The position numbers and the translations under genes were made by a program. Of a stretch of DNA of 64,000 bases, positions 22,975-63,453 are shown piece after piece. The stretch comes from Sycon ciliatum (Eukaryota; Porifera; Calcarea; Leucosolenida; Sycettidae): the NCBI RefSeq assembly GCF_964019385.1, contig NC_088654.1, positions 4,757,097 through 4,821,096 of the forward strand, given 5' to 3'. Each line of letters starts with the position of its first letter. The first letter of the stretch is position 1. The notes beneath the pieces were generated by a model. The model had not been told where the DNA came from. It worked only from the letters and a program-made list of their open reading frames with translations, and made no database searches.

Positions 22975-23017
22975 AATACTGCAAGAAAGAAAGAGAGCAT
23001 GAGTGTCAGATTCGCAG

Positions 23018-23451
23018 CCAACGAGGTGCTGGTGTTGCCCTCCGCCAATAGCTATCCAGGTAGCCTCCAGGTGGCTATTGTGCAGATCAGAACGATAGGT
23101 AACTGGGAGTGATGTCTTGTAATAGAGGCATGTGCCCCCACCCTGGCGATCGGGCCGGTCACGGCGAACAACACTGTAGCCGGGAATACAAATTTCGCCA
23201 TCCGAGATTGTACTATCCAGCCAGGTCTCAGCAACGCCAACGACGTCCCATTTGTGCTGGTGGGCAAGGCTGTCCAGTGCATGCAGCTTGTAGCGCAGGC
23301 TGCAGATATTGAAAAACCCGATGTTGAGGCTTGTGACGAACAGTTTGAGGTTGTTGCAGTTGGTTGTTCTTTGGGAGCCCCGGGACCTTCGAGGCTGGAA
23401 GGGGGTAGCATTGGGGTTTAGCAGGGGTATATGGCTGGCAGCAGACATCAC
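23018..23451 (-). pseudogene. ORF2 start (endonuclease N-terminus), truncated
   Basis: The frame starts at 23451 and gives LNIGFFNICSLRYKLHALD and GVAETWLDS, the first two endonuclease blocks. It matches the intact ORF2 that starts at 61904 almost codon for codon, up to the junction at about 23018, where (TG)n and zinc-finger RTE sequence take over in the same frame. Confidence 0.85.
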
Positions 23452-24240
23452 TGTTTGCTGACTGGAGCCACGCGCTTTGCAGCTTGGTCTTCAGCGGGAG
23501 AACCACACTGGTGGGGTCGTGACTTCTGCCCAGGGGTCCGAGTTAACTCGGCGCCGGGTTTGGGAGAACTGTCGCTGCTGCTATTGCGGCGGCTGCTGCT
23601 GCTGCTCCTGCCACAGTCGTTTCCGCTGCTGTCGTCGCCACTGCCATCGTCCCTGCTGCTGTGGGCATTGTCGTTGCCGTCGCCACTGCCACGGTCGCTG
23701 CTGCTGCTGGTGCCGCCACTGCCACAGTCGTTTCCGCTGATGTCGTCGCCACTGCCATCGTTCCTGCTGCTGTGGGCATTGTCGTTGCCGTCGCCACTGC
23801 CACCGTCACTGCTGCTGCTGCCGCCACTGTCACAGTCGTTTCAGCTGCTGTCGTCGCCACTGCCACCGTCTGCTGCTGTGGGCATTGTCGTTGGCGTCGC
23901 CACTGCCACCATCACTGCTGCTGTGGGCCTTGTCGTTGCCGCTGCTCTTCTTGGGTGGATTGAATTTCCATGTCCTGCAGTAGAGAGGCCGAGGCCAGAA
24001 GTTGGCAGAGATCACAGTGGCCAGGCAAGCTGCATCGATGGTGACCCTGGCGGATACTTTGCCGCTAGCTGCCGTGTGCACATTGCGTGAGTGGACATCT
24101 ATGATGTTCCCTAAGGCTGCTACAGACCGGCGGTGCACAAACTCCGTGAGACCCTCCATTGTGCAGGTGCTACTAAGGTTGCCAACAAACACTACTGCTC
24201 TCCGGCGTCTTGGTGGGGCTGCAGCGACCAGCTGCCAGCT

Positions 24241-24595
24241 GTCGTTGTTGTTGTTGTTGTTTATTTATTTTACATCGCATGGCAAACGGGCAGTTCTGCC
24301 CAATATTATGAAAGGGATGACAACCAGTAAGAAGAGTCAGAAATGAAGAGAAAATAAATGAAAATAAAAATACGAAAACGGAAGTAGCAATGAGGGGAGG
24401 CAGGGTCAAGACGAGCAGAAAAAATGGATCTCAAATTTACAAGTCGGGTCATCGTAGCATGATTCTATCGAGTCTCATCAGCAGGTTACGAAAGCCATTA
24501 CATTTAACCGAAGTAGAATACGCGTAGCATGCGTTTGAATTCACGGACAGATACTATGGACTTCATGCAGTCGGGCAGGCCATGCGCCAGAAGCA
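24241..24595 (-). mobile_element. 5'-truncated non-LTR insertion (3' end only)
   Basis: The copy at 62690-62710 reads straight through where this piece begins after CTGTCGT and ends before TCGTCATTTATGG, so it is an insertion with a short TCGT-type duplication. It starts with a TGTTGTTG tail on the left, contains the conserved 3' UTR block AAACGGGCAGTTCTGCCCAA near 24283, and on the minus strand ends an RT reading (LPDCMKSIVSVREFKRML). It belongs to a CR1-like family. Confidence 0.75.
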
Positions 24596-24708
24596 CTCGT
24601 CATTTATGGCATCCACTTCCTCTCGCTCTGTGTTGCCAGTTTCAGGTTCAACACTGCCTGCAGCGGCCGGTAGGGTGTCCGGGTTAGGCCCAGCGTTGGC
24701 AGCAGTAG

Positions 24709-24887
24709 TATATAATAACACATGGTACGGAGGGCATTATGGCTGATTTATGCCCTGGTGCGTAGCCCGAGGTCGTGCACCGTAGCCCAAGGGCCGCAGG
24801 CCCGCGGGCTATGGTGCACGACCGAGGGCTACGCACTAGGGCATACCATCAGCCATAATGCACGACGTACCATGTGTTTATTATAGT
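24709..24887. repeat. Palindromic element
   Basis: TATAATAACACATGGTACG at the left is mirrored by CGTACCATGTG plus TTTATTATA at the right, with further inverted blocks (GGGCATTATGGCTGAT, GCACGACC, GGGCTACG) to the centre near 24795. It is almost a complete hairpin of about 175 nt. It was either inserted separately or is the left end of the larger insertion next to it. Confidence 0.6.
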
Positions 24888-26583
24888 TCATACATGCCAC
24901 GTGCCTAGTTGTAGACACATAAGGTAAACATGGTCAAGGGAGGAGGAAGGTTCCAATCAGCTGTCATATGAATGAAGGGTCGAACAAGATCAGAAGGAGC
25001 TTTCTCCGTGGAATGATAGAACGTTTTGTGTCAGATTTACTTGCAGTTCCAGGAATATGCCTTTGCATTTTGGTGTTAGTGTTGCCTATTGCCTAGTATT
25101 GGGCGGTACGGAAGTTAGCTGACATTGGACGCAAACATCCTTGACCAAGTGGCACTAGTACTAGTAATTAGACTACTAGTAGTTTTGAGAGTACATTGTA
25201 AGTGTTCTTATTCGGAACAATGCTACTTTTTCACATACATCTGAGATTTTGTTCGCATTGCTTTCAGTTTACTTGAGGTTCATGTACACTGGACATGTAC
25301 CTAGATACATTTGAAGTACATATAGATGTAACTGTATATTTTGTAGGAATTCGAGGTACAATCTGATCTATTCCAGATAGGTTTGTGATGCATGTTCACC
25401 TGTCGACTTGTTCGCCTCAATTGACTTGAATCTAGTAATGCATGGTAATGACATGCTGTGTCCTATTGTCGCGTTGTTATAAATTACTTCTCCTCTGTCG
25501 ACATTGCTAGTAAAATATAATTGTTTTGGACGGTGCACGTAAGTAGTTTCGTTTTGTGTGATGTGTGCGAGTGCAGGTGGTGTCCTTAGGGATGGTCCCA
25601 TGTGTTCTACGTGCGCTGGAGTACTGCCAATTATGTACCAGATCATTGCGGTAAAAGGCATGGCTTGTTGCATATTTGGCAGTGCACCAGCGTACGTAGT
25701 ACGCCTGGGGTCATTCCTAATGGGTGACCTCACTGCCCATATGCTGAAGCGAGTGGCTCACAATGTCTCCGTGGAGCCCCACCTGCAGCCGGTCACTGGG
25801 GAGCAGTTCCGGTATCGCACCGCTATCCAGACTGAGCAGGCCCGTCTCGACGTTGCGGCAAGTGGCATCTGGGGTGGCCGGTTTGAGCGCACCTTCATCG
25901 ATGTGAGGGTTTTCAATCCTCATGCGACCTCAAACCTCCATTGCTTCCTGCTACACCAAGCACGAGAAGGGGAAGCGGCGCTGCTATGAGCAACGTGTCC
26001 GCGACATAGAGCATTCGTCGTTTGTTCCGGCCATATTCTCTACCACTGGTGGTTTGGGCAAACACGCGGAGTCGCTCTACAAGCGGATAGCTTCTCTTCA
26101 AGCCGCGAAGACTGGAGAAGCATACAGCTGTGTTATGTCTTGGGTTCGATGCAAATTGAGTTTTGCCCTACTCCGGTCCAGCGTGATGTGTTTGCGCGGA
26201 TCCCGGAATCGTCGGCCGGTGCAGTTGGACTCACCTCCCACCTTGGCGGTTGCTGAGGCGGGCATTCGCATTTGATACCATTTGCCTCTGGTTTTGTCTG
26301 TATTTGCTTCGTCTGTGCTCTTTTCATCCTACTGCTAGTAGTTTTCAGTCCGCTATCGGGCGGCTGCACTCCAGCTCTGCTTTGCACTTCTCTTAACTTC
26401 TTTTTCCTTTGACTTGATCATTGGTATTATAATCATTTTTTTTAAACGCCGTATACTCACCGGAAAAAAATGGGCATGGGTACGCCGTACCCGGGCATTA
26501 TCGTCTGATAATGCCCTGGTACGGTGCTGCTCTGATTGGCCAAATGCTAGCAACGACCTGACAACAGGCACGTGACATGTATG
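24888..26583. mobile_element. TIR-flanked insertion carrying a nuclease-like ORF
   Basis: The sequence TTCATACATGCCACGTGCCT near 24889 is matched in inverted form by AGGCACGTGACATGTATGAA ending at about 26582. The insertion splits ORF1 of the CR1-like copy (compare the uninterrupted sequence at 62795-62815). Its only coding content is the ORF at 25558-26275. A hairpin GGGCATTAT..ATAATGCCC lies near 26493-26515. The region 24910-25557 has no recognisable gene. Confidence 0.55.
25558..26275 (+). pseudogene. Nuclease-like C-terminal module of a mobile-element protein, one frameshift
   Basis: The first frame gives HNVSVEPHLQPVTGEQ, then ARLDVAASGIWGGRFERTF and DVRVFNPHA. After one frameshift at about 25925 the second frame gives CYTKHEKGKRRCYEQR, IEHSSFVPAIFSTTGG and VRCKLSFALLRSSVMCLRGS, ending at 26273. 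I recognise this block from many invertebrate and fish element ORFs; the D..D-V-R arrangement suggests a PD-(D/E)XK-like nuclease related to the restriction-like endonucleases of non-LTR elements, but the family name is uncertain. The usual upstream Cys/His-rich and RT regions are absent here. Confidence 0.5.
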
Positions 26584-27134
26584 AAGCACCGATAACGGGC
26601 TTGACACTGACAGGCAGGAGTCCAGTATCCCCTGCATCAGACTCAGAATACTCCATTTCTGTGTCCCCAGAGGGCACTGTCTTGGTTGCGTGCCAGGGTG
26701 TGGCGGCGCTACGGGTACGGGGTTCAGTGTGGGTTCCCACGTGTTTTACCTGCTGGTTTGGCAGTTTTGCACTGTCACTTGCGCGTGGCTTTGACGGTCC
26801 AGGACTACTGGTACGGGTACTCTTACTCGTGGTACTACTACTACCTGCACTCTTGATCTCCTTGCCCAGCTCGCTTTTTGAAAATGGTTGCTTGACTGCC
26901 ATAATGGACTCCTTCAACGATTTTATTTCTTGCCTTAAATCCAAAGACCAGGCCGGCGAGCTCGTCTACTCTCCGCTGGAGGCGTACTTCGTTGTTTCTG
27001 GCCTCACTGACGAAAGCATTCAAAGTATCTACAAGGCTGACCACGTTGTGATGTATTCCGGGAATGCTACAAAGTAGCTTCACCTGCTCCGCGCTTGAGA
27101 GCTCACCCATGGCGCGAAGATTCTCGTTGTGCAC
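26584..27134 (-). pseudogene. ORF1 N-terminal part of the broken CR1-like copy
   Basis: From the Met at 27134 the frame reads as in the intact ORF1 at 63352 (LSSAEQVKLLCSIPGIHHN), with a frame break near 26945. It continues into a Ser/Thr-rich region and stops at the foreign insertion. The remaining ORF1 pieces lie at 24596-24708 and 23448-24240. Confidence 0.8.
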
Positions 27135-27276
27135 AACCTAGCTACCTAACTACACTACTGCAACTGCTGCAACGACTACTACTACTGCTACAACCTACCT
27201 ACTTACCTCCAGTCCGGCCTAATGCCGGCTGGGCTGTCCAAAAGGTTTCAAGAACTGGAGCTCAAAAACGCGTACC

Positions 27277-42697: not shown

Positions 42698-43108
42698 GGC
42701 CGCCAGAGGTGGGTCAGCCCTACTACGCGATACTAACTAACTAATACTGCTAGTGGTCCTCTTGGCCACGCCGACGGGCTGCCAGAGACTGAAAAACTGC
42801 GGAGCTCAAAAATTTGCTTCCACTTCAGTAAACTTCAAAAAAAGAAGATAAGATGTGAATGCACCAGGTTATAGGTATCGGGGTAGGATCATCGGGGAAA
42901 TGGAAAATAAAAGTTTGAAGATGTGCAACATCTGATGACGCGTTGGGGACGACACACATGATCTCGGTCTTGGCGGAGTTCGGCCGGAGCGTCCACCTTC
43001 GCATCCACTTGACCACACAGTCTATTCCTACCTGCAGGTCGCACGCGACGGGGAGCGACCGGTGACTAGCCAGCAGAGTGGTGTCGTCCGCATATAGCGA
43101 GGTGTTGG

Positions 43109-43445
43109 TGTAGTATCCCTGCCCGACCAATACAGCAGCAGTAAGGAACTAATACGGAGCTTTGCCTGATGTATACTAAAGTGTATCTCCGTATATAAGC
43201 GTACGGCGTCTGCTGCATAAAAGCAGCTGCGCATTTCTGTTTTAAGGAGATTAGATTAGATTAGATAGCAATGAAAGCTAACTCGAAGAAGAAGGAGTCA
43301 ACCTCTAGGTAATCACCGGAGAGAAAGTTATTTATTTTGCCGCTTCTTCTTTCACTAATAATTATATCTCAGGTGTGTACCTGAAAGTAGAATAAAAGTA
43401 ATTCTTGTTAATTGCACCGCGCCTACCACTCGGCTACCTGTTACA
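43109..43445 (+). repeat. 5' long terminal repeat
   Basis: 337 bp, TG..CA ends. It contains TCCGTATATAAGC (TATA-like, about 43192) and AATAAAAG near its end, a plausible promoter and polyadenylation signal. Confidence 0.9.
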
Positions 43446-43500
43446 TTGGTGGCAGCGGTGTAGTTTTAAATAAAACAACGTGATTCGACCCCAGACCCCC

Positions 43501-43542
43501 ATGGCTCAACCCGCTGCAGCTCCCTACGACGAATCAAGATGA
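43501..43542 (+). pseudogene. Short leader ORF, probable gag start
   Basis: An ATG just after the primer-binding region gives MAQPAAAPYDESR and a stop. The stop overlaps the ATG of the captured ORF at 43539. It may be the truncated start of the parental gag, with the capture junction at about 43537. Confidence 0.45.
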
Positions 43543-44080
43543 GAATCATGTTTCTTGCCTTCCTGGGCTTGGCCCTGCTTATTAGCTGCAGTCAGGGTGC
43601 TAGCGTGGATCACCCTTCTTTCCGCAGGCCACACACTGGAGATTCCGATGGCGATTCCAAGCGACCCGCTACCTACATGTATACTACCGGTGGTGATAGC
43701 GAAGCTGATGAGGACGACGACATGCAGGCTGCTGACCAAGACAAGGAGGGTATTCCCCAAGACCAGCAGCGTTTGATTTTCGCCGGCACGCCGGCCGAAC
43801 CCTGAGTGACTACAACGTTCAGCAGGAGTCCACTATTCACTTGGTACTTCGTCTCCGTGGTGGAATGCAGATTTTCGTCAACACTCTTCCTGGCTAGACC
43901 ATCACTCTTTACGTCGCGCCAAACGATGCTATCGACAATGTGAAGACCACGATTCAAGACGAGGAGGGAAGTTATTTGTCTGACGCCGAGCTAGCCGCTC
44001 TGAGTGACCGGCTCAACCAAGATGAAGATAAAACCTGGCTCGCCCTCCGCCATAGCTCCAGCCGCCGCGGTGGTTACTAA
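43539..44080 (+). pseudogene. Captured secreted-protein gene interrupted by one ubiquitin unit
   Basis: The ORF from 43539 begins with a clear signal peptide (FLAFLGLALLISCS core) and an acidic segment ([13 protein letters not shown]). At 43737 it enters [16 protein letters not shown] of ubiquitin. A 10-nt deletion then shifts the frame to a stop (43803). In the shifted frame ubiquitin continues through LVLRLRGG and MQIFV, with a TAG at the Lys11 codon, up to IQDEEG at 43968. After that comes LSDAELAALSDRLNQDED and a stop at 44078. Host-like parts before and after are in phase with each other once the ubiquitin unit is set aside. The host protein is not recognised. Confidence 0.8.
43737..43968 (+). 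pseudogene. Circularly permuted ubiquitin unit from a polyubiquitin transcript
   Basis: The segment runs from ubiquitin residue 32 to 76, then 1 to 35 of the next unit, so it spans a GG-Met junction and must come from a polyubiquitin array. It is bounded by CAAGACAAGGAGGG (43737-43750) and CAAGACGAGGAGGG (43955-43968), exactly 218 nt apart, that is one 228-nt unit less the 10-nt deletion. The deletion removes the region of Lys48. Stop at Lys11. Confidence 0.9.
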
Positions 44081-44562
44081 CGCTGATTCCAGGTATGGCA
44101 TTTTCTTTCCTGTCTTCCTTCAGTCTCCCTGTTCTCTTCAGTCTTCCTTTATGCGAGTGTGTGAATCCAGTTTAGTTTGGTAGGCGTCTGATCATGGTGA
44201 GCCACGGCTTACCCAGCTAACGTGGGACAATGTGTGTGACAACGCCCCTTATAGTTATAGTGTATTCAGTTCGGTTTTTGAACTCCGATGTTCCTGGCGG
44301 GTTGTGCCAGCGTTGTGCGGCAAGAGTGCTGTGGATTTTCAGGTCCTATTTGGAGGACAGTTCTTTCCCCTTTTGACCCCGTGAGATCGTGTGAACCTGG
44401 TGTGCTTCTACTTTATGATTTGTTATCAGTTCATTTCTTCTGTCTACTCTAAACGTTATCATTTCCGATATAATTTGCCATCTTCCGGTTGACGCTGTGT
44501 TCGTAACTCTTCACTAATTTTTTGAAAATCACGAGGGCGTGATAATCTGTAGGAAGGGAGTG
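44081..44562. other. 3' internal region of the LTR element
   Basis: Non-coding, pyrimidine-rich at first. The polypurine tract (AGGAAGGGAG, 44551-44560) adjoins the 3' LTR. Nothing else is recognised. Confidence 0.6.
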
Positions 44563-44898
44563 TGTAGTATCCCTGCCCGACCAATACAGAAGCAGTACGG
44601 AACTAATACGGAGCTTTGCCTGATGTATATTTAGTGTATCTCCGTATATAAGCGTACGGCGTCTGCTGCATAAAAGCAGCTGCGCATTTCTGTTTTAAGG
44701 AGATTAGATTAGATTAGATAGCAATGAAAGCTAACTCGAAGAAGAAGGAGTCAACCTCTAGGTAATCACCGGAGAGAAAGTTATTTATTTTGCCGCTTCT
44801 TCTTTCACTAATAATTATATCTCAGGTGTGTACCTGAAAGTAGAATAAAAGTAATTCTTGTTAATTGCACCGCGCCTACCACTCGGCTACCTGTCACA
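44563..44898 (+). repeat. 3' long terminal repeat
   Basis: 336 bp, a near-identical copy of the 5' LTR with a few substitutions and a short indel near 44628. Confidence 0.9.
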
Positions 44899-45160
44899 TT
44901 GGTAATTGCACCGATATCATTCACATACATTAGAAAAAGCAGGGGCCCCAGAATTGATCCCTGGCGGACACCAGAACACACGCGTTCAGGGTGGGACAAT
45001 TGACCCGAGTATATATTTTTGATATCATATTTTCAAGGATTCTCCTGAGGCGAATGGATGCCTATCAAAGGGAAAGCAAGTCAAGGTGGCTGTTATGAGA
45101 GAGGGAAGAAGGGACATGACAAGGTGAAATAATCACATTATTACTTTCTACACAAACCTA

Positions 45161-45320
45161 GTCACGTGACAAAGACGTGCAGCTACGTCTTTGTCACATG
45201 ACAAAGACGTGCAGCTGCGTCATTGTCACGTGACAAAGACGTGCAGCTACGTCATTGTCACGTGACGAAGACGTGCAGCTACGTCATTGCCACGCGACAA
45301 AGACGTGCAGCTACATCATG
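45161..45320 (+). repeat. Five tandem 32-bp units with CACGTG and ACGTCA motifs
   Basis: Units start at 45161, 45193, 45225, 45257 and 45289. The consensus begins GTCACGTGACAAAGACGTGC and ends AGCTACGTCATT. Each unit has an E-box-like palindrome (intact in most) and a CRE-like TACGTCA. No adjacent gene is recognised. Confidence 0.9.
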
Positions 45321-45575
45321 GTCAGGGCACGGACACATTATACCAAAATTCTGAGAGCTTACTTCAATTTGCTAGTAATACTTGGTGGGACGTTTCTGCA
45401 GTCATTGCATCTAAAGTGCAACTGGGCGTAAACACCACCAAACCCTGCCTGCAAATATTGAAAAGGAAGGACACAAATGAAACAAAGATAGTATTGTGGT
45501 TAAGAGTCATTGAAATTTTGTGAAAATAACGTCCATTGGACTGTATCGATTGGACACAAACCTTACTACGTTGCT
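45321..45575. other. No gene recognised
   Basis: Short unrelated frames only, up to the (TG)n tract. Confidence 0.5.
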
Positions 45576-59003: not shown

Positions 59004-61904
59004 TCATTGCAAGGTGTAGGGGATGGAGGCAAGCTTAAATTGCTGGGCAGCCTTGATCTCCCTTACACTCCTTGGGAGAGCGTTCCAGGCCAAGGCTGCC
59101 TGAAAGGCCAGGCGAGATCTGCCGGCTTCTGACTGTGCCGAGGGGACAGTGAGGCCCCTGGAAACCTGGTGCCGGGTGGTGCTGCCAGCTGATGGTGAGA
59201 ATAGGTCCTGGAGGACACTGCTGGCTTTCCCATTGACACAGCGCCACACCAGGACAAGCCGCTTCTGGGCGTAGCACTCGCGAACTCTGTACAGGGACAT
59301 CCGTTCGAGCAGAGGCTGAGCCGAGGTGTGAGGCGGCAAACCGTATACCGCTCTCGCCGCTCGGTTCTGCAGGACCTGAAGGCGATCAAGCTGCGAAACC
59401 TTGAGGGAGGAAGAGAAGGCGTTAGACCCATATAGGAGGTCAGGCATGATGACTGACCTCACATACTGGATGCGACTACTGAGGCTCAGACATCTGCGGG
59501 ACCGCCACAATGCTCCAATCTTCTGCACAACGTTCTTCGCCATCGCGTCAACATGGGGGTCCCACTTCACAGCGGCGTCAAGGGTCACGCCGAGGTACCT
59601 TGCTGTTGGGCTCAGGGGAAGCTCTGTCTGGTTGCAGGGGACAGCGACATGCTGACCCGCATTGCGTTGTGGTACAATTGACAGGACCTGGCTCTTCTTG
59701 TCATTTAGAAGCAGATGTCGATGCTTGAGCCAGTCAGCGACGTTGGTGACGGCCCCTGATAGGCAGGCTGATGTGGCTAGCACTGATTTTTTGTGGCAGT
59801 GCACGGCAATGTCATCGGCAAATTGCAGAGATGGAGCAGGATGGGCTATGGCAGGGACATCACGGGTGTACATGCTAAACAGGATCGGTCCTAGGACCGA
59901 GCCCTGAGGTACACCAGATGAGCACGTAGCAGCAACACTGTAGGTGGGGCCAATGCGCACTTGCTGGGTTCGATCGCTTAAGTAGCTGCAGAACCAGCGA
60001 AGGGAGGCATTGTCCAGGCCGAGATCGAATAGGTCCCGTACCAGTTGGCTGTGATTGACCTTGTCAAAGGCTTTTGACATGTCGATTAGGCAGACGCCTG
60101 TGGTCAACTTGTCGTCCCGGGCCTTTAAGATGGCATCTGTTGCTACAACTAGGGCGTCCTCTGTGGAGTGCTCACGGCGGAAGGCAAACTGAGTCGGTGG
60201 TATGGCACATGATCGCTCCAGATGTGCAGCAAGTTGCTTCTGGACTATCTTCTCGAGTATTTTGGATACGATCGGCAGGAGCGACACAGGACGATAATTT
60301 GCAGCTACCGATGGATCGCCAGCTTTGAAGAGAGGGCTTATTACAGCATGTTTGAAAGCCAGAGGGACTTCACCATGCCTCAGCGATGAGCTGAAGAGCA
60401 CTGAAAGCGATGGAGCCAACAGGTCAGCGCAAGCACGTAGCAGACACCCAGGAATCCCATCACTGCCTGTGGCTTTGCAGGGATTTATCCGTTCCAGGAG
60501 GTGCTTGACCTCATCTGGGGTGGTTGACTGGAAGGTCAGCATTGAGCCTTGCGGCTGTGGACCAATGGGAATCTGGAGCTGCGCCGGACGGGACGGATCA
60601 TGTACAATGCTGTGGAAGGCATCCGAGACTTCTGTGATGTCGCACGTTGGCTGATGATGTTGACGAGAACGGCTAGTGACAGAGTTGATCACGGACCACA
60701 TCATCCGCAGGTTGGAGGAGTGATCACGACACTGCTGTTGGAAATGCTGATTGCGTTTTCGCCGGTAAGCATTTGAGGCTTCTGCACGGGCTCGCTTGTA
60801 CTCCTCATGTAGATGCACGTTAGTCTTATCTCGTAGCCACTTTCGGTGAAGTCTATTCTTGCGCATGTTCAGTTGGAATAGATCACGGTCGGACCATGGC
60901 GGGGGAGTCCTCCTGGTGGAGATTCTGACTTCACGCAGGGGAGCGTGATTTTCGAGAACCGACATAAACTTGGCATGCCAGCCATTCCACATCTCGTCTA
61001 CAGTTGCAGCAGGGGGAAAGGAGTGGAGGCTGCACGAGGCAATATCTTCACGAAATGTTGCAAGGTTAATGGCACGGATCTTGCGGGTGAGGCGCACTGA
61101 TTTCCGCTGCAGTGGGTGTTGCGAGGAGGGTAGAGACAGACTTGCATGCACAAGGAAGTGATCGCTGATCGTGCAGGGTACAACTTCACAATGACTTATA
61201 GTACCCACGGTGGAGAGCACTAAATCAAGCAGCGTTCCATCCGGACATCGGGGTGTGACTCGTGTGGCAGACTGGACGTAGTTGCGGAGCCCATACGATC
61301 CGATAAGGTCCCAGAAGCGCTGGTGAGGACGACTGGTCATGCATTGAGCCAGATTGATATTAAAGTCACCCACCAGTGTTATTGATGGCGTGATCGTGGC
61401 AGCATTGTGGAGGACTGTGTCCAGGTGGCCCCAGAAATCAGCAGTTGCATTTGGTGGGCGATAGAGGCAGCCAACGAGGTGCTGGTGTTGCCCTCCGCCA
61501 ATAGCTATCCAGGTAGCCTCCAGGTGGCTATTGTGCAGATCAGAACGATAGGTAACTGGGAGTGATGTCTTGTAATAGAGGCATGTGCTCCCACCCTGGC
61601 GATCGGGCCGGTCACAGCGAACAACACTGTAGCCGGGAATACAAATTTCGCCATCCGAGATTGTACTATCCAGCCAGGTCTCAGCAACGCCAACGACGTC
61701 CCAGTTGTGCTGGTGGGCAAGGCTGTCCAGTGCATGCAGCTTGTAGCGCAGGCTGCAGATATTCAAAAACCCGATGTTGAGGCTCGTGACGAACAGTTTG
61801 AGGTTGTTGCAGTTGGTTGTTCTTTGGGAGCCCCGGGACCTTCGAGGCTGGAAGGGAGTAGCATTGGGGTTTAGCAGGGGTATATGGCTGGCAGCAGACA
61901 TCAC
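59004..61904 (-). CDS. ORF2: AP endonuclease and reverse transcriptase, CR1-like
   Basis: 966 residues, unbroken. Endonuclease: LNIGFLNICSLRYKLHALD, VAETWLDS, TLVGDFNINLAQ near residue 180 and TISDHFLVHAS near 248. RT: ATGSDGIPGCLL, PLFKAGDP, LIDMSKAFDKVNHSQLV, GVPQGSVLGPILF near 668, catalytic LQFADDIAVH near 693, then ARYLGVTLDAAVKWDPHVD and a C-terminal ALAWNALPRSVREIKAAQQF. The protein nicks DNA and copies the element RNA in the nucleus. The start at 61904 overlaps the ORF1 stop, suggesting reinitiation. Length is usual for the group. Confidence 0.93.
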   Translation of the reverse strand: MMSAASHIPLLNPNATPFQPRRSRGSQRTTNCNNLKLFVTSLNIGFLNICSLRYKLHALDSLAHQHNWDVVGVAETWLDSTISDGEICIPGYSVVRCDRPDRQGGSTCLYYKTSLPVTYRSDLHNSHLEATWIAIGGGQHQHLVGCLYRPPNATADFWGHLDTVLHNAATITPSITLVGDFNINLAQCMTSRPHQRFWDLIGSYGLRNYVQSATRVTPRCPDGTLLDLVLSTVGTISHCEVVPCTISDHFLVHASLSLPSSQHPLQRKSVRLTRKIRAINLATFREDIASCSLHSFPPAATVDEMWNGWHAKFMSVLENHAPLREVRISTRRTPPPWSDRDLFQLNMRKNRLHRKWLRDKTNVHLHEEYKRARAEASNAYRRKRNQHFQQQCRDHSSNLRMMWSVINSVTSRSRQHHQPTCDITEVSDAFHSIVHDPSRPAQLQIPIGPQPQGSMLTFQSTTPDEVKHLLERINPCKATGSDGIPGCLLRACADLLAPSLSVLFSSSLRHGEVPLAFKHAVISPLFKAGDPSVAANYRPVSLLPIVSKILEKIVQKQLAAHLERSCAIPPTQFAFRREHSTEDALVVATDAILKARDDKLTTGVCLIDMSKAFDKVNHSQLVRDLFDLGLDNASLRWFCSYLSDRTQQVRIGPTYSVAATCSSGVPQGSVLGPILFSMYTRDVPAIAHPAPSLQFADDIAVHCHKKSVLATSACLSGAVTNVADWLKHRHLLLNDKKSQVLSIVPQRNAGQHVAVPCNQTELPLSPTARYLGVTLDAAVKWDPHVDAMAKNVVQKIGALWRSRRCLSLSSRIQYVRSVIMPDLLYGSNAFSSSLKVSQLDRLQVLQNRAARAVYGLPPHTSAQPLLERMSLYRVRECYAQKRLVLVWRCVNGKASSVLQDLFSPSAGSTTRHQVSRGLTVPSAQSEAGRSRLAFQAALAWNALPRSVREIKAAQQFKLASIPYTLQ

Positions 61905-63352
61905 TGTTTGCTGACTGGAGCCACGCGCTTTGCAGCTTGGTCTTCAGCGGGAGAACCACGCTGGTGGGGTCGTGACTTCTGCCCAGGGGTCCGAGTTAAC
62001 TCGGCGCCGGGTTTGGGAGAACTGTCGCTGCTGCTATTGCGGCGGCTGCTGCTGCCGCTCCTGCCACAGTCGTTTCCGCTGCTGTCGTCGCCACTGCCAT
62101 CGTCCCTGCTGCTGTGGGCATTGTCGTTGCCGTCGCCACTGCCACCGTCACTGCTGCTGCTGCCGCCACTGCCACAGTCGTTTCCGCTGCTGTCGTCGCC
62201 ACTGCCATCATCCCTGCTGCTGTGGGCATTGTCGTTGCCGTCGCCACTGCCACCGTCACTGCTGCTGCTGCCGCCACTGCCACAGTCGTTTCCGCTGCTG
62301 TCGTCGCCACTGCCACCGTCACTGCTGCTGTGGGCATTGTCGTTGGCGTCGCCACTGCCACCATCACTGCTGCTGTGGGCCTTGTCGTTGCCGCTGCTCT
62401 TCTTGGGTGGATTGAATTTCCATGTCCTGCAGTAGAGAGGCCGAGGCCAGAAGTTGGCAGAGGTCACAGTGGCCAGGCAAGCTGCATCGATGGTGACCCT
62501 GGCGGATACTTTGCCGCTAGCTGCCGTGTGTACATTGCATGAGTGGACATCTATGATTTTCCCTGTGGCTGCTACAGACCGGCGGTGCACAAACTCCGTG
62601 AGACCCTCCATTGTGCAGGTGCTGCTAAGGTTGCCAACAAACACTACTGCTCTCCGGCGTCTTGGTGGGGCTGCAGCGACCAGCTGCCAGCTGTCGTCAT
62701 TTATGGCATCCACTTCCTCTTGCTCTGTGTTGCCAGTTTCAGGTTCAACACTACCTGCAGCGGCCGGTAGGGTGTCTTGGTTAGGCCCAGCGTTGGCAGC
62801 AGTAGCACCGAAAACGGGCTTGACACTGACAGGCAGGAGTCCAGTATCCCCTGCATCAGACTCAGAATACTCCATTTCTGTGTCCCCAGAGGGTACTGTC
62901 TTGGTTGCGTGCCAGGGTGTGGTGGCGCTACGGGTACGGGGTTCAGTGTGGGTTCCCACGTGTTTTACCTGCTGGTTTGGCAGTTTTGCACTGTCACTTG
63001 CGCGTGGCTTTGACGGTCCAGGACTACTGGTACGGGTACTCTTACTCGTAGTACTACTACTACCTGCACTCTTGATCTCCTTGCCCAGCTCGCTTTTTGA
63101 AAATGGTTGCTTGACTGCCATAATGGACTCCTTCAACGATTTCATTTCTTGCCTTAAATCCAAGACCAGGCCGGCGAGCTCGTCTACTCTCCGCTGGAGG
63201 CGTACTTCGTTGTTTCTGGCTTCACTGACGAAAGCATTCAAAGTATCTACAAGGCTGACCACGTTGTGATGTATTCCGGGAATGCTACAAAGTAGCTTCA
63301 CCTGCTCCGCGCTTGAGAGCTCACCCATGGCGCAAAGATTCTCGTTGTGCAC
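61901..63352 (-). CDS. ORF1 protein of the CR1-like element
   Basis: 483 residues. An N-terminal helical segment (SSAEQVKLLCSIPGIHHN) is followed by a coiled coil at about 45-75 (NEVRLQRRVDELAGLVLDL), a Ser/Thr/Pro-rich region, an RRM-like block at about 235-320 (AVVFVGNLSSTCTMEGLTEF to FWPRPLYCRTWKF), and a C-terminal run of Ser/Gly/Asp/Asn repeats (DGGSGD and DSSGNDCGSGG units, plus-strand 62010-62390). Expected to coat element RNA. The repetitive tail is absent from the ORF1 at 41870-42697 and differs in unit number in the copy at 23560-23900. Confidence 0.88.
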   Translation of the reverse strand: MHNENLCAMGELSSAEQVKLLCSIPGIHHNVVSLVDTLNAFVSEARNNEVRLQRRVDELAGLVLDLRQEMKSLKESIMAVKQPFSKSELGKEIKSAGSSSTTSKSTRTSSPGPSKPRASDSAKLPNQQVKHVGTHTEPRTRSATTPWHATKTVPSGDTEMEYSESDAGDTGLLPVSVKPVFGATAANAGPNQDTLPAAAGSVEPETGNTEQEEVDAINDDSWQLVAAAPPRRRRAVVFVGNLSSTCTMEGLTEFVHRRSVAATGKIIDVHSCNVHTAASGKVSARVTIDAACLATVTSANFWPRPLYCRTWKFNPPKKSSGNDKAHSSSDGGSGDANDNAHSSSDGGSGDDSSGNDCGSGGSSSSDGGSGDGNDNAHSSRDDGSGDDSSGNDCGSGGSSSSDGGSGDGNDNAHSSRDDGSGDDSSGNDCGRSGSSSRRNSSSDSSPKPGAELTRTPGQKSRPHQRGSPAEDQAAKRVAPVSKQ

Positions 63353-63453
63353 AACCTAGCTACCTAACTACACTACTGCAACTGCTGCCACTACTACTAC
63401 TACTGCTACAACCTACCAAAAGGTTTCAAGAACTGGAGCTCAAAAACGCGTAC

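Follow-up and report, generated by a model that had tools for sequence, protein, structure and literature searches.

How did a short LTR element of the calcareous sponge Sycon ciliatum come to carry one captured host gene inside another? The question is raised by positions 43105-44902 of the window, by which we mean the whole 64,000-nt stretch of DNA analyzed here. Including its TTGG duplications the element spans exactly this interval, with 1,790 nt between the target-site duplications (TSDs), and the coordinates, TTGG flanks and matching LTRs given in an earlier note, made from the sequence alone, are confirmed to the base. Aligned over 336 positions, the two LTRs show five mismatches and a single gap column. 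Paired LTRs ending in TG..CA, a TSD, a primer-binding site and a polypurine tract are all present, as in LTR retrotransposons, and this anatomy supports the reading as an LTR element that had been proposed. The primer site and the purine tract are both found in the sequence as described, and the primer is presumably tRNA-Leu. The features are listed in Table 1.

Table 1. Positions of the parts of the LTR element in the window, and of the two host polyubiquitin genes.
Feature	Position	Strand	Remarks
TSD TTGG, left copy	43105..43108	+	Equals the 4 nt after the 3' LTR
5' LTR	43109..43445	+	TGTAG...TTACA, 337 nt
Primer-binding site	43447..43460	+	TGGTGGCAGCGGTG, just after the 5' LTR; presumed complement of the tRNA-Leu 3' end
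13-codon ORF	43501..43542	+	MAQPAAAPYDESR; runs into the first codons of the captured gene; many copies have a similar leader
Captured secreted-protein gene, N part	43539..43736	+	Signal-peptide-like stretch and acidic stretch
Left junction motif	43737..43750	+	CAAGACAAGGAGGG, 14 nt
Permuted polyubiquitin unit	43737..43954	+	Ubiquitin 31/32-76 then 1-30; 218 nt
TAG replacing ubiquitin codon K11	43895..43897	+	Common to the aligned copies
Right junction motif	43955..43968	+	CAAGACGAGGAGGG
Captured secreted-protein gene, C part	43969..44077	+	..LSDAELAALSDRLNQDEDK..
Non-coding 3' region common to copies	44081..44551	+	blastn over 44079-44545: mostly 95-99% between copies
Polypurine-rich tract	44552..44562	+	GGAAGGGAGTG, just before the 3' LTR
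3' LTR	44563..44898	+	336 nt
TSD TTGG, right copy	44899..44902	+	Equals the 4 nt before the 5' LTR
Host polyubiquitin gene, five repeats	C1:3161275-3162414		
Host polyubiquitin gene, six repeats	C4:35376249-35377616		

The gag and pol genes of an autonomous LTR retrotransposon are absent. Among ORFs of at least 50 aa, the longest that lies wholly inside 43109-44898 encodes 94 aa, in agreement with the earlier remark that there is no pol, and the three cargo frames gave ubiquitin as their sole Pfam match, below its cut-off. The 13-codon ORF is possibly the remnant start of gag, which is a guess, and the non-coding region behind the captured gene is probably a captured 3' UTR followed by the 3' end of the element itself.

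The insertion interrupts an opposite-strand ORF that reads ...FLMYVNDIGAI on one side of the element and ...TSLYADDTTLL... on the other, motifs that we take to be those of the reverse transcriptase of a non-LTR element. Elsewhere in the window two non-LTR-like element copies (23014-27199 and 61467-63417) lie about 36-38 kb apart and are 95-99% identical over the listed repeat blocks, and one of the two has a 966-aa ORF at 59004-61904. A 32-nt tandem repeat with CACGTG (45161-45352) adjoins the LTR element. Neither Rfam, at its gathering score, nor ARAGORN gave a hit in the window.

The interior of the element is read most easily from ORF 43539-43805, which opens with the signal-peptide-like stretch and continues from 43737 as ubiquitin residues 31/32-76; after residue 76 the sequence runs on as GG-MQIF.. 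to codon 35 and then returns to the frame that ends ..SSRRGGY. The ubiquitin order 32-76 then 1-35, with a head-to-tail GG-M junction, is visible across three frames, and the claim that exactly one ubiquitin repeat in this order lies inside a signal-peptide ORF holds, full units being one 228-nt repeat. The two junction motifs start 218 nt apart in the window copy, which has a 10-nt deletion at about 43792/43793, and the motif-to-motif distance is exactly 228 nt, 10 nt longer, in 8 of the 19 copies measured (L006, L008, L019, L024, L025, L027, L028 and L030), so the interpretation of this spacing as 228 nt less a 10-nt deletion was right. In another group of copies the ubiquitin unit is short by about 32 nt. 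Each of the two ubiquitin pieces of the window copy falls below the Pfam cut-off when taken alone; an intact copy, P0011, scores well above it. Codon 33 is AAG, as in ubiquitin, at the left junction and GAG at the right junction, as would be expected if host sequence resumes there, a later mutation being possible too.

The ubiquitin genes of the host genome include a Ub-L40 gene in addition to the two polyubiquitin genes of Table 1. The 12 host ubiquitin repeats (L037-L048) encode one protein sequence, which differs from common animal ubiquitin by E24D and A28T. Nineteen of the 20 aligned copies were cut at the junction motifs (L015, in which the left motif is mutated, was left out), and for all 19 the C1 gene is the closest donor, at 84-90% and with repeats 2 and 3 (L042 and L041) the best, compared with 73-78% for the C4 gene. 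The exact 14-nt CAAGACAAGGAGGG is found in three of the 12 host repeats, namely C1 repeats 2, 3 and 4, and the remaining nine lack it. Both observations support the proposal that the ubiquitin unit derives from polyubiquitin, and on their strength we identify the five-repeat C1 gene as its donor, with repeats 2 and 3 the likely source.

The gene on either side of the unit has relatives of its own. Protein searches listed 42 of 45 and then 48 of 50 candidates for the N part, and 4 of 5 for the tail. With one exception the matches listed are unnamed entries of source 'ena'; most of the listed relatives run on into ubiquitin sequence, and some are frameshifted or cut short. The exception is P0053, which bears the NCBI name 'transcription initiation factor TFIID subunit 7-like, partial [Sycon ciliatum]' and has a signal-peptide stretch and the N part, followed by ..EQDEDKDEEDDEEEGDLSDAELDALSDKLNQEED.. 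without ubiquitin. BLASTP aligns it to the cargo with 25 of 44 aa identical in the N part and with 20 of 34 and 22 of 34 in the tail after the insert. An uninterrupted relative free of ubiquitin, for which a search had been suggested, is thereby at hand, matching both flanks. In P0053 the break point lies between QD and EEG, and the motif was therefore probably present in the target. P0053 contains no Pfam family at cut-off, and it is acidic, with 23% Asp after the first 24 residues and a computed pI of 4.1. Short Asp-rich secreted proteins are described in a report on Sycon sclerocytes (PMC5390275), and the likeness of P0053 to these is only a lead. The derivation of the interior from the host is supported by P0053 and by the C1 polyubiquitin gene, and segments related to two cellular genes are joined within one LTR element, as in elements of the Bs1 type.

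Other copies of the element were collected by an LTR query of the same genome, in which the best 40 of 1440 first-look candidates gave 42 places (loci L002-L031); twelve places had no locus, of which ten were added as L058-L067 and two lie inside L028, and L057 was added for its ubiquitin match. After repeats of the same place were dropped 37 loci remained, the sample consisting of loci with LTRs most like those of the window. This search for further LTR copies, which the earlier note had recommended, shows cargo in 34 of the 37 loci examined, and in 32 the ubiquitin part is matched by blastn. Both halves of the cargo are present in 30 loci, and every one of the 30 has the ubiquitin unit (29 of 29 when L057, picked for ubiquitin, is left out). 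The two cargo loci without a ubiquitin match are L032, with 26 nt of cargo followed by LINE-like sequence, and L058; the latter was considered as a ubiquitin-free copy and dropped because it ends some 13 nt inside the ubiquitin part. Of the 23 loci with two LTRs, 18 are bounded by an exact 4-nt TSD (10 of 15 in a first set and 8 of 8 in a further set), and in three of the five that lack one the second LTR is followed by a primer site. Eight LTR pairs are free of mismatches (L018, L019, L021, L030 with four gap columns, L061, L063, L065 and L067), which argues for recent movement of the family. In a protein query with ubiquitin, the best 150 of 1102 candidates scored comprise 12 host units, about 135 rows of the element pattern, counted by eye and matching from about ubiquitin residue 20 at 70-77%, and three other rows.

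A search for an autonomous partner with the same LTR ends, as had been proposed, found none among the fetched loci. The LTR loci with odd interiors, L032-L036, do not qualify: in L033 a nested LINE-like insertion divides an otherwise normal copy, L034 and L035 each consist of an LTR with a tRNA-like tail, in L036 the ubiquitin part gives way after 53 nt to a tandem repeat, and L032 is a 5' fragment. The 1815-aa open frame at L057 consists of N only. ORFs for protease, reverse transcriptase and integrase, Ty3/gypsy-like by their motifs, lie near the family copy at L057:210-3719, on the opposite strand. Scans of viral contigs with the cargo and with the LTR start found no relative, and a scan of genome contigs found only a bacterial-MAG ubiquitin. 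A ubiquitin-like coding sequence at L001:2222-2380, on a contig binned as a Lachnospiraceae MAG, is either bacterial ubiquitin or contamination.

Several individual loci have structures of their own. At L032:2001-2500 a 5' LTR, leader and 26 nt of cargo have the same LINE-like coding stretch on both sides, an incomplete insertion accompanied by a long duplication. Seven of 29 family rows differ in another way (L008, L025 with the LTR at 1503, L027, L028, L029 with the LTR at 855, L034 and L035): the LTR is followed by TTGGTGGCAGCGGTGGGATTCGAACCCACGCC..., presumably a tRNA-Leu complement that extends beyond the normal 18-nt primer site, roughly as far as the anticodon arm. These long complements support the identity of the primer site, and they look like the result of reverse transcriptase reading far into the primer tRNA. 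Sometimes they form arrays, as in L028, of the form LTR-tRNA-partial LTR-tRNA-partial LTR. A 1.5-kb inverted repeat with arms 98.9% alike occupies L034:1-6126 and presumably encodes a RING-finger-like protein; its inner edge coincides exactly with a family LTR. As protein only, the cargo is also seen behind at least two upstream leaders other than that of the window (P0008, P0050, P0051, P0034 and P0003), and it may have been exchanged between LTR subfamilies.

We conclude that this is very probably a non-autonomous LTR family whose cargo is a Sycon gene for an acidic secreted protein and a C1 ubiquitin repeat, built by template switching. Switching at microhomology is the mechanism that we infer as the best fit to the sequences. 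The reverse transcriptase of an unseen autonomous element would act in a virus-like particle, where element RNA, secreted-protein mRNA and polyubiquitin mRNA would be copied by template switching in one round or more, with entry at CAAGACAAGGAGGG in one ubiquitin repeat and exit at the same motif one repeat away. The tandem ubiquitin repeats would bring the enzyme back to its point of departure, and the product would therefore be exactly one permuted repeat with the flanking frame kept; two switches at a single target position would be expected to leave just this, one exact repeat that begins and ends in the same ubiquitin phase. The chimera would then have moved in trans and multiplied, its ubiquitin part decaying without constraint and gaining the stop at codon 11. 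For LTR elements, an earlier report describes template switching at sites of microsimilarity (PMC5408686).

The order of these events is less firmly indicated. The earlier note took them to be two successive transductions with the secreted gene first, an order for which the family gives no ubiquitin-free element as support. A genome-wide search with an exact-anchor pattern allowing a gap of 30-60 nt found no case of the N part joined to the tail without ubiquitin; the same anchors are exact in 22 distinct fetched elements, always 221-285 nt apart, and the pattern therefore misses some copies. No full element free of cargo or of ubiquitin was found, ubiquitin-free copies numbering 0 of 30 among those sampled with both halves. 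A single round with several switches, or insertion before capture, therefore fits equally well. If the transductions were successive, the element with the secreted gene would have multiplied first, and one copy would have gained ubiquitin and displaced the rest, which is a version of our preferred explanation and not exclusive of it. The ubiquitin-free host relative P0053, the known mechanism and the position of the ubiquitin target site inside the captured gene speak for this sequence of events; no surviving ubiquitin-free element of its first stage was found, in a search that misses some copies, and we regard it as possible and rather doubtful.

We think it unlikely that the ubiquitin unit instead entered the host secreted gene or a retrocopy of it, by DNA recombination or gene conversion, and that the chimera was captured afterwards. 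One capture step would then be enough, and the failure to find ubiquitin-free copies, both genome-wide with the exact-anchor pattern and in the sample, fits well. However, the P0053 of Sycon ciliatum is without ubiquitin, and no host gene carrying the unit, which the earlier note had named as evidence against its own reading, was met among the best 150 of 1102 candidates, three rows being set aside.

TAG stands at ubiquitin codon 11 in all 20 aligned copies and in 25 of the 34 cargo loci, the stretch being unmatched in the other nine. The stop is not universal, Y or E being found there in three of the four database ORFs that continue into the tail, all four of which start at ubiquitin Met1 or further in; read-through of the whole chimera was found in none of the 48 of 50 relatives listed. 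Pooled pairwise dN/dS over the 20 copies, with codons in the frame of the window copy and pairs that are not independent, is 0.72 in the N part; the translated ubiquitin parts have values of 0.50 and 0.41, and the stretches behind the stop 0.36 and 0.55, giving no sign of selection on the ORF beyond the untranslated controls. Sixteen differences of the unit from its donor are fixed in 19 copies, 12 of them amino-acid-changing and 4 silent, near the unconstrained expectation. Selective loss of ubiquitin lysines, 6 of the 7 lysine positions being altered in one or both of their two copies, was considered and rejected, as the fixed changes fit the neutral 12:4. Folding of the whole chimera as a permuted ubiquitin was dropped on account of the codon-11 stop, and the complete fold ending in GG of a functional ubiquitin fusion is missing, the order being permuted and interrupted by the TAG.

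It is very improbable, then, that the signal peptide, the acidic part and ubiquitin 32-76 plus 10 residues form a secreted product under selection. Fourteen database ORFs do cross ubiquitin 32-76 in frame and share an end point, and 9 of the 34 sampled loci can be read from ATG to that common end, but the translated parts show no excess of constraint over the stretches behind the stop, many copies, including that of the window, are frameshifted, and the stop removes ubiquitin residues 11-31, so that the product should not adopt a ubiquitin fold. An artefact of assembly or sequencing, which the earlier note had considered for the ubiquitin segment, is for practical purposes ruled out by the many copies, 18 of them TSD-flanked at different places in the genome, and relatives are present in public protein clusters.

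The family can be compared with several known systems. The double capture had been called unusual, and unusual it is, although there is a precedent in maize Bs1, an LTR element described as carrying parts of three transduced host genes (PMC13317346, PMC5408686). Like Bs1, the Sycon element joins pieces of more than one cellular gene into a chimera; unlike Bs1 as portrayed in those accounts, it has an animal host, one captured gene lies inside the other at a readable microhomology, and the insert is one permuted polyubiquitin repeat for which the donor gene, and within it the likely repeats, can be named. The LTR-mediated retroposition that Tan and co-workers studied in animals, as summarized in PMC5408686, involves the same proposed mechanism of packaged cellular mRNA and a switch at short similarity, but its products are described there as retrocopies, whereas here the chimera is a multi-copy mobile family. 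TRIMs such as biv-TRIM and Helenus/Ajax are likewise short and have LTRs, primer-binding sites and polypurine tracts without mobility proteins (PMC6934838, PMC10886601), and 4-bp TSDs are reported for animal Helenus (PMC6934838, PMC10886601). TRIMs are given as shorter than 1 kb, with Helenus reaching up to 1,263 bp (PMC10886601); the present element shares their lack of mobility proteins but exceeds the 1-kb limit at 1,790 nt and has a captured gene aboard. Cytopathogenic pestiviruses are also mobile RNA genomes that take up host ubiquitin coding sequence by RNA recombination, the ubiquitin insert serving, according to one account, as a processing signal (PMC8310069); in the sponge element, in contrast, ubiquitin is permuted, stopped at codon 11 and without a sign of selection. 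No ubiquitin-carrying LTR element was found among the titles and abstract openings of the literature searched, most subscription journals lying outside that search. Gene transduction by LTR elements is known from Bs1-type cases, and a single permuted polyubiquitin repeat inside a second captured gene is a variant of it.

A broader idea, which we offer as speculation that may well fail, is that a tandem-repeat mRNA acts as a 'return ticket' for template switching, polyubiquitin being a general and favored donor of permuted single units in retroelements and retroviruses, with the three RNAs joined here in a single round. If that were true, any repeat sharing a short motif with the template would let the enzyme return to the same base, inserting one repeat in frame. 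Tandem-repeat mRNAs, polyubiquitin for example, are candidates for a systematic search. Annotators should be aware that ORFs of this family bear precomputed ubiquitin-domain labels in the protein collection. The element preserves a well-resolved scar of gene capture in an animal LTR element, in which one can see the donor gene, the likely repeats, the break point and a relative without the interruption, and with it the building of chimeric genes by reverse-transcriptase template switching at microhomology becomes testable in a sponge.
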